A stretch of 35,338 nt of DNA from Streptosporangiales bacterium. GTDB taxonomy: Bacteria > Actinomycetota > Actinomycetes > Streptosporangiales > WHST01. Below are positions 324 to 1,390 of this stretch, one piece after another. Positions within the stretch are counted from its first letter, which is position 1, and every line of letters begins with the position of its first letter. The notes below the pieces were generated by a model. The model searched no databases and was not told where the DNA came from. It worked only from the letters and a program-made list of their open reading frames with translations. The stretch covers positions 1-35,338 of the forward strand of contig WHTA01000061.1 in the NCBI GenBank assembly GCA_009379825.1. The letters are read 5' to 3'. The position numbers and the translations under genes are program-made.

Positions 324-797
324 TCAGCTGGCTGTTGGCAGCACGGTCTGGCCGTCCAGGTCGAGCAGGTCGTCGACGTCGGCTAGGAAGTCCGCCACCA
401 GGCGGCAGAAGGCGCCCACCTGGCCGTGGTCGAGCGGGAACGGCAAGCCTGCCTCCGCGGTTGCACGCAGGCCCGCGCTCTCCGCGAACACCGCCGCCCA
501 TCCGTCCAGCTCGGGCGCTACGGCCAGCAGCTCCTCCCAGGCGCTGCCGGCACGGCGGCGCGCCGGCCGACCTCGGACCGCCAGCACGGCCGCGGCGGCG
601 CGCAGGGCCGCCAGGTGCGCCGTGGCGAAGCGCAGCGCCGGCGTGTCCGTCTCGCCGGCGGCCTCGCCGAGCATCCGGTGCGCCTGCTCGAGGTAGCCGC
701 GGGCGGAGAAGCCGAGCCGACGGGCCCGCGAGCGGTCGCCCGCCCGCCGGCGCCGGTCGAGCATGGCGTCGTCGGTGACCTGGGTGTGCGCCGTCAT
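324..797 (-). CDS. SAV_6107-type HEPN domain protein
   Basis: The 157-residue protein resembles the actinobacterial SAV_6107 HEPN family: helical, alanine-rich, with the segment DTPALRFATAHLAALRAAAAVLA and conserved VFAESAGLRATAEAG. HEPN proteins are helical bundles that are often RNases or nucleotide-binding partners, but no clear Rx4-6H RNase motif is visible here, so catalysis is not claimed. The ATG at 797 overlaps the stop of the upstream DUF6504 gene by four bases (ATGA) and is preceded by GGGGAGG, which fixes the start and shows translational coupling. It should share the LexA-controlled promoter of DUF6504. As I recall, these two families often travel with translesion polymerase (imuB/dnaE2) cassettes, which suggests a DNA-damage role. 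A degraded copy of its 3' half follows at 141-311. Confidence 0.75.
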   Translation of the reverse strand: MTAHTQVTDDAMLDRRRRAGDRSRARRLGFSARGYLEQAHRMLGEAAGETDTPALRFATAHLAALRAAAAVLAVRGRPARRRAGSAWEELLAVAPELDGWAAVFAESAGLRATAEAGLPFPLDHGQVGAFCRLVADFLADVDDLLDLDGQTVLPTAS

Positions 798-1162
798 GCC
801 GGACCTCCCCGATCCTCGGTGCCCGCCGCACCACCGGCGGCGCCGGTGGTGGTCAGCGACCAGTTACCCGGTTGCCCGTGGCTCCAGTCGAAGCACAGCT
901 CGTAGACGCCGGGCACCTGTTGCCGCGGCCGGACGGCCTCCACCTGCCAGAACTCACGGCCACCCGCGGACGACTCATCGGTCACGCCCGGCACGTCCGA
1001 GGCCAGCAGCCCGCGCACCGACGCCGACTGCCACAGCGGACCGGTCTCCAGCCAGTGCGCCAGCACGCCCTGCACCCGATAGACCCGGCCCCGCCACCGG
1101 AACGACGTCGGGCAGGCATCCCTGCTCTCCACGTCGATCGGCTCCGCGAAACCGGCGGCCAT
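794..1162 (-). CDS. DUF6504 family protein
   Basis: The protein has 122 residues and contains the DUF6504 hallmark of a small beta-rich domain (FRWRGRVYRVQGVLAHW, then EFWQVEAV and YELCFDWSHGQPGNWSL). The ATG at 1162 is chosen because AAGGGGG lies seven bases upstream and because homology begins there; the open frame extends further upstream only through structured leader sequence. The function is unknown. As I recall, the family is frequently encoded beside error-prone DNA polymerase genes in actinomycetes, which agrees with the LexA-box promoter found about 175 bp upstream. It is the first gene of a two-gene operon with the HEPN gene, with overlapping stop and start. Confidence 0.8.
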   Translation of the reverse strand: MAAGFAEPIDVESRDACPTSFRWRGRVYRVQGVLAHWLETGPLWQSASVRGLLASDVPGVTDESSAGGREFWQVEAVRPRQQVPGVYELCFDWSHGQPGNWSLTTTGAAGGAAGTEDRGGPA

Positions 1163-1199
1163 TGTCGTACCCCCTTGACATGCTGCTGTCGAGGTCTGC

Positions 1200-1240
1200 G
1201 GAACCGGGTGGGGTGCTTCCCCCACACCACACCCGGTTCC
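1200..1240. repeat. Hairpin 1 in the leader of the DUF6504 operon
   Basis: Arms 1200-1215 and 1225-1240 pair over 16 bp with one mismatch around a 9-base loop. It lies in the untranslated leader between the LexA-controlled promoter and the DUF6504 start. No T-tract follows, so a simple terminator is doubtful. Confidence 0.6.
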
Positions 1241-1248
1241 TGCCGGGC

Positions 1249-1286
1249 CCCGCCCGAGGCGGGGGTCGAGGACCACCTCGGGCGGG
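1249..1286. repeat. Hairpin 2 in the leader of the DUF6504 operon
   Basis: CCCGCCCGAGG (1249-1259) and CCTCGGGCGGG (1276-1286) form a perfect 11-bp stem next to hairpin 1. A third perfect 9-bp stem, GACGCGAAG/CTTCGCGTC at 1303-1311 and 1325-1333, follows directly before the LexA box. The leader is thus almost entirely structured. Confidence 0.6.
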
Positions 1287-1336
1287 ACCCTGCGCCCCGA
1301 CCGACGCGAAGCTGCGAGTCCCTTCTTCGCGTCGAC

Positions 1337-1390
1337 TCGAACACCTGTTCGAATGACAGTTACTCTACCCCGCCCTCACCGAGGGTGCAA
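1337..1390 (-). promoter_or_regulatory. LexA-controlled promoter (SOS box) of the DUF6504-HEPN operon
   Basis: On the minus strand a -35 TTGCAC (1385-1390), a 17-bp spacer and a -10 TAGAGT (1362-1367) form a good housekeeping promoter. The 16-mer TCGAACACCTGTTCGA at 1337-1352 is a perfect palindromic match to the actinobacterial/mycobacterial LexA box TCGAAC-N4-GTTCGA. It begins ten bases downstream of the -10, so bound LexA would cover the transcription start. SOS induction of the operon follows by inference. A weaker rightward -10 candidate, TACTCT at 1361-1366, could in principle serve the gene at 1432 too. Confidence 0.82.

Follow-up and report, generated by a model that had tools for sequence, protein, structure and literature searches.

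Descriptions of actinomycete SOS regulons usually list proteins. Small RNAs under LexA control are known from enterobacteria and are of the IstR-2/TisB type; the trait they have in common with the RNA described here is transcription from a LexA-repressed promoter, and they differ from it in phylum, architecture and neighbouring genes. To our knowledge there is no relation in sequence or structure between the two. The mycobacterial-type operator of the actinomycete LexA/SOS regulon, TCGAAC-N4-GTTCGA, is matched in both sequence and place by a box in the window, that is, the whole 35,338-nucleotide stretch of Streptosporangiales DNA considered in the current analysis. The LexA regulon of S. venezuelae (PMC9380542), in the portion of that account available to us, has similar regulon neighbours, namely imuA'BdnaE2, a radical SAM gene and dinB; the same portion mentions neither a structured RNA nor HEPN_SAV_6107, whereas the window operon has both. 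The ImuA'-ImuB-DnaE2 mutasome, the composition of which is still under study (PMC10421592), is likewise under SOS control, and DUF6504 and, in Pilimelia, the RNA with HEPN are found in the same gene runs. The window operon differs from it in that no polymerase, ImuA' or ImuB is encoded in the operon, and none adjoins it in two congeners.

The window comprises the entire contig C61 of a 6.15-Mb actinomycete genome, and its position 1 is an assembly end. The features of the operon are collected in Table 1. The box TCGAACAGGTGTTCGA, at 1352-1337 of the minus strand, is a perfect 6-4-6 palindrome located downstream of the -10 element. A sequence-only reading of this DNA had described a promoter of 17-bp spacing with a perfect palindrome over its start site, which is as read here from the minus strand, and had placed the operon under SOS control. 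Comparison strongly supports LexA control of the DUF6504-HEPN operon, since the box is kept in the congeners and before the orthologues and since HEPN and DUF6504 have independent boxes where the two genes are apart. A perfect box whose 4-bp centre differs is present in both congeners (G001 and G002), where it precedes the DUF6504 domain by ~222-226 bp; the operon of G001 is split across the ends of two contigs and we infer its continuity. Perfect boxes number 8 in the window's own genome of 6.15 Mb, against about 0.12 expected from base composition, and boxes with at most one mismatch number 61, against 25 for a reversed control pattern. The other perfect boxes are near imuA'-imuB-dnaE2, a radical-SAM gene, a sigma-70 factor, dinB and others. 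One perfect box of this genome (G000:C5:8011, L025) is close to an ORF that resembles a phage antirepressor (KilAC and Bro-N) and possibly belongs to a prophage.

Table 1. Promoter, RNA and gene features of the operon in the window
Feature	Position	Strand	Basis
-35 element TTGCAC	1385..1390	-	read from sequence
-10 element TAGAGT, 17-bp spacing	1362..1367	-	sequence; congeners L115 and L117 similarly laid out
Perfect LexA operator TCGAACAGGTGTTCGA over predicted start site	1337..1352	-	sequence; kept in G001 and G002
RNA hairpin H1, GACGCGAAG...CTTCGCGTC, loop AAGGGACUCGCAG	1303..1333	-	fold; homologous H1 in 35-leader alignment A1
RNA hairpin H2, 18-bp stem, loop with CUCGACCC	1245..1290	-	fold; hairpin most alike among three congeners
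RNA hairpin H3, conserved loop GGGGAAG(C)	1200..1240	-	fold; model R1 matches 1189-1309 at 27.8 bits
Probable ribosome-binding site AAGGGGG	1170..1176	-	sequence
DUF6504 gene, 122 aa, predicted all-beta	794..1162	-	PF20114 E 1.7e-15; model pLDDT 76
HEPN_SAV_6107 gene, 157 aa, all-helical	324..797	-	PF18726 E 4e-27; model pLDDT 88
Decayed partial repeat of HEPN 3' half, beside contig end	140..310	-	parts of 311-663 repeated

The ~175 nt from the box to DUF6504 fold into three hairpins with a z of -5.6 against dinucleotide shuffles, and the congeners share all three, with compensatory changes among them. Judged from these sequences, the first element of the SOS module is a conserved structured RNA situated between the box and DUF6504, which the sequence-only reading had overlooked, though its suggestion of a distinct small damage-response module is otherwise supported. 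Rfam 15 gave no match in the window at E<=1, and the loci of relatives gave one sub-threshold match (E 0.54). The leader RNA is apparently undescribed: searches within an open-access library found neither a report of it nor one of HEPN_SAV_6107 under SOS control. A small RNA that is induced by damage and connected with error-prone DNA repair is the probable identity of this leader.

Elsewhere in the order the HEPN_SAV_6107 and DUF6504 genes are apart, the former lying close to metF and a BldD-like gene and the latter at another locus. Eighty further HEPN stretches were fetched and 75 loci, including the window, were scored; L121 and L173 are one locus, which leaves ~74 distinct ones. Another 16 loci missed by the tblastn step were excluded, 15 of them in or near the fetched set of the order. 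A LexA box (at most one mismatch) upstream of HEPN and the loop GGGGAAGC between the box and the HEPN gene were each found in 73 of the 75 scored loci, one locus being counted twice; one exception is a locus cut by a contig end, and another has a variant loop. The leader loops RCUCGCGG and AGGGGAAG follow the LexA box before nearly every stand-alone HEPN_SAV_6107 gene that is readable in the order (72-73 of ~74). Two LexA boxes ~40 bp apart have been observed upstream of HEPN in L137, L146, L125 and many more loci, the first preceding the core promoter and the second overlapping it.

A covariance model (R1) was built from an alignment of 35 leaders (A1) that belong to genera other than that of the window. 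Its scores are 27.8 bits (E 0.003) for the window, 37 bits for G003 and 32 bits for Pilimelia; the match in the window rests on H3, the H1 part being misregistered. Among 151 genomes of the order, 100 have the H3 pattern, only 3 of these with two matches; in the HEPN-bearing genomes it is located just upstream of HEPN. None of 395 other genomes of the phylum has the exact pattern, and viral contigs likewise gave none. The RNA is not strictly confined to the order, as Pilimelia carries the hairpins. A hairpin match in G056, at another locus and with no LexA box, was judged to be due to chance.

A genus-level clade (g8) is distinguished by an extra hairpin with GCUUCCCC or a variant of it, present in all 16 of its scored leaders (for example L125, L138, L140 and L186) and absent from every other scored leader. 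This hairpin is complementary to the H3 loop GGGGAAGC, which suggests that the loop pairs, either intramolecularly or in competition with a target.

Ten genomes that have no match to PF18726 (G011, G016, G025, G035, G039, G046, G053, G087, G109 and G132) nevertheless carry H3. They belong to four genera (g6, g7, g14 and g19), and R1 recovers all ten loci. The RNA is at the same place, from the metF side to the BldD-like gene, with a LexA box (at most one mismatch) 81-123 nt upstream of H3; the gene that comes next, the BldD-like one, is convergent, no HEPN ORF comes after the RNA, and HEPN queries at the ten loci found no real homologue. H1 is weak or altered at these loci. The 36-nt H3 is 92-100% identical between the HEPN-less genera, as compared to 52-66% for the flanks. 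The weak HEPN match seen in L254, which lies over the RNA itself, was considered spurious. Short ORFs of these transcripts are in overlapping frames and have in common only short stretches over the conserved elements, none of them being convincing as a conserved peptide. The simplest reading is that HEPN has been lost and the SOS-controlled RNA retained because it is functional without HEPN. These ten loci, with a LexA promoter and a structured RNA and no ORF behind it, probably encode a stand-alone SOS small RNA; the window, in which two ORFs follow the RNA, is not of this kind.

The RNA could instead be a cis-acting 5' leader only, one that governs how well the HEPN (or DUF6504-HEPN) mRNA is translated or how stable it is, perhaps by autoregulation through bound HEPN, and the HEPN-less copies would then be relics. 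Almost all genomes of the order with HEPN have the RNA directly before the HEPN ORF, which agrees with such a role, as does the proposal that HEPN domains without the usual RNase motif bind RNA (PMC3710099). However, the retention of the LexA box and H3 in ten HEPN-less genomes of four genera, the near invariance of H3 while its flanks diverged, which argues against relics, and the presence of another gene, DUF6504, after the RNA in the genus of the window render this explanation unlikely.

The reading that we favour, and consider probable from the comparisons, is that the LexA-repressed transcript consists of the conserved three-hairpin RNA, probably a small RNA acting via the H3 loop, together with DUF6504 and HEPN as accessories of the translesion response. 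LexA would bind and repress a single promoter, the transcript of which would start with the three-hairpin RNA and run into DUF6504 and HEPN_SAV_6107; upon DNA damage, RecA-stimulated cleavage of LexA would release the RNA and both genes. The RNA would most likely be an independent small RNA, released from the leader by processing or partial termination wherever a gene lies behind it, and would act in trans, its exposed G-rich H3 loop (AGGGGAAG) being the putative active site that meets a partner. HEPN and DUF6504 would serve as protein accessories of the translesion (ImuA'-ImuB-DnaE2 or DnaE-type) response, and might in this manner influence the function of the mutasome and mutagenesis. Counting against the small RNA are the weak or altered H1 and the overlapping short ORFs of the HEPN-less loci; moreover, a gene follows the RNA in most genomes, so that a purely cis role is possible there. 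A more specific proposal is put forward only tentatively: an undescribed LexA-controlled actinomycete small RNA with an exposed G-rich loop, met in one clade by a built-in complementary C-rich hairpin, and working with or beside HEPN_SAV_6107 and DUF6504, may be an RNA component or a regulator of the error-prone repair machinery. A conserved RNA that heads an SOS operon and is kept after loss of the protein gene would bring RNA into the damage response as an additional layer, and the actinomycetes concerned are a group that makes many genotoxic antibiotics. HEPN_SAV_6107 and DUF6504, two families of unknown function, would gain a testable place beside the mutasome.

Both families had been said to sit beside translesion polymerase genes. 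This is true of DUF6504, which has a LexA-like box (at most two mismatches) in 31 of 32 loci and which, in 25 of the 30 loci of the order, is followed directly by a DnaE-type error-prone polymerase; G003 (L118) has the arrangement imuA'-DUF6504-imuB-dnaE2. For HEPN it holds in only two of 55 named loci (imuA'-imuB-dnaE2 in Pilimelia and dinB in a member of Frankiaceae) and in none of 11 stretches examined in the order. From the boxes and the loci of the two families, the window operon joins two genes that are elsewhere separately SOS-controlled. The claimed absence of a polymerase next to them is not readable from the window on the contig-end side, as position 1 is the end of C61, and it is the two congeners that show none there. 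A search of the rest of the genome for imuA, imuB and dnaE2, as had been advised, revealed imuA'-imuB-dnaE2 on contig C1, where it has a perfect box of its own and lacks DUF6504; imuA' and dnaE2 were placed by homology matches, the automatic calls having given antisense ORFs there. The idea that the operon is the surviving tail of a mutasome cassette is rejected as worded, given this separate cassette with its own box and the location of HEPN at the syntenic metF-side locus. The dnaE2 of this genome (G000:C1, L023 4140-6230) aligns to residues 1-597 of the G003 DnaE2 and then, in the same frame, to 1020-1097, about 420 residues being missing in frame; the gap may be a real deletion or an assembly collapse.

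Another form of this idea considers the operon as the remainder of an ancestral box-RNA-HEPN-imuA'-imuB-dnaE2 cassette from which the polymerase genes moved away. In Pilimelia terevasa (L098) the elements lie in precisely this order, all on one strand next to metF, and the imuA' and imuB there are 49% and 48% identical to those of the window's genome. We regard this origin as quite unlikely, since the arrangement has been seen at a single locus, every genome of the order that was checked has HEPN apart from imuA'BdnaE2 or DUF6504-DnaE, so that the Pilimelia arrangement may itself be derived, and the genus of the window would in addition require a gain of DUF6504.

Over H1 and H3 of alignment A1, 91.6% of the cells are standard pairs and 15 of the 25 pairs have changes on both sides; there are 82 cells with a double change, as against 27.8 for shuffled alignments and no more than 26 for any slid control. 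That the hairpins are a GC-rich by-product or DNA-level elements with no RNA function is scarcely credible, for although a high GC content (70%) yields strong folds, the fold exceeds that of dinucleotide shuffles, the compensatory changes exceed those of the slid controls, so that covariation contradicts such a reading, the loops are invariant, and there is about one copy per genome.

The HEPN_SAV_6107 genes of Streptomyces have neither the LexA box nor the RNA, and HEPN thus does not need the RNA. The motif TTGTCRGTG-N8-nAnnnT is found upstream of HEPN in 44 of the 55 named loci (L060-L114), nearly all of them from Streptomyces, and, within the window's order, in 32 of 74 loci, as against 0.4 of 129 in shuffled sequence. 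The same motif has also been written as TTGTCAGTG-N8-nAnnAT and is PafBC/RecA-NDp-like. We take it to be the RecA-independent (PafBC, RecA-NDp) promoter type, and if this is right HEPN_SAV_6107 would be a damage gene via two circuits. Promoters of this type are known from mycobacteria and from SCO6735 of S. coelicolor, and one paper reports the M. smegmatis motif as not conserved in S. venezuelae.

The HEPN protein of the window scores 95.1 bits against PF18726 (curated cut-off 27.2) and is a clear Pfam member of HEPN_SAV_6107, the SAV_6107 family of HEPN-M (Anantharaman et al. 2013, PMC3710099). The family was listed as being without the Rx4-6H motif and no operon context was given for it; here, R-x4-H (R56 and H61) is invariant in 40 sequences (alignment A2) and sits in the helix 53-75 of the model, earlier than the usual place of Rx4-6H. 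The fold of the model is all-helical, and HEPN toxins are among its best PDB matches, which are weak (E about 0.4). From the invariant R-x4-H and this fold, binding or cleavage of RNA by HEPN_SAV_6107 is possible. The preceding ORF, which overlaps that of HEPN by 4 bp, scores 57.6 bits against PF20114 (curated cut-off 24.2) and is a member of DUF6504; a fold search of its model against PDB gave no close or usable fold. A relationship of DUF6504, as a free domain, to the C-terminal domain of ImuB was considered and rejected, the hhalign probability being 0.2% against one ImuB tail.

Beyond the HEPN gene, the decayed copy reported earlier is real, and the transposase reported with it is unconfirmed, as no Pfam family is matched by the 27 residues that remain up to the end of the window. 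The congeners keep the order GmrSD_C-like gene, DUF6504 and HEPN together with the perfect box, and compared to them the window holds an extra mycothiol-dependent isomerase-type gene at 1432-2121. The gene of a putatively secreted protein with a GmrSD_C domain is at 2129-2794 of the window, and in the congeners it is syntenic beside DUF6504.
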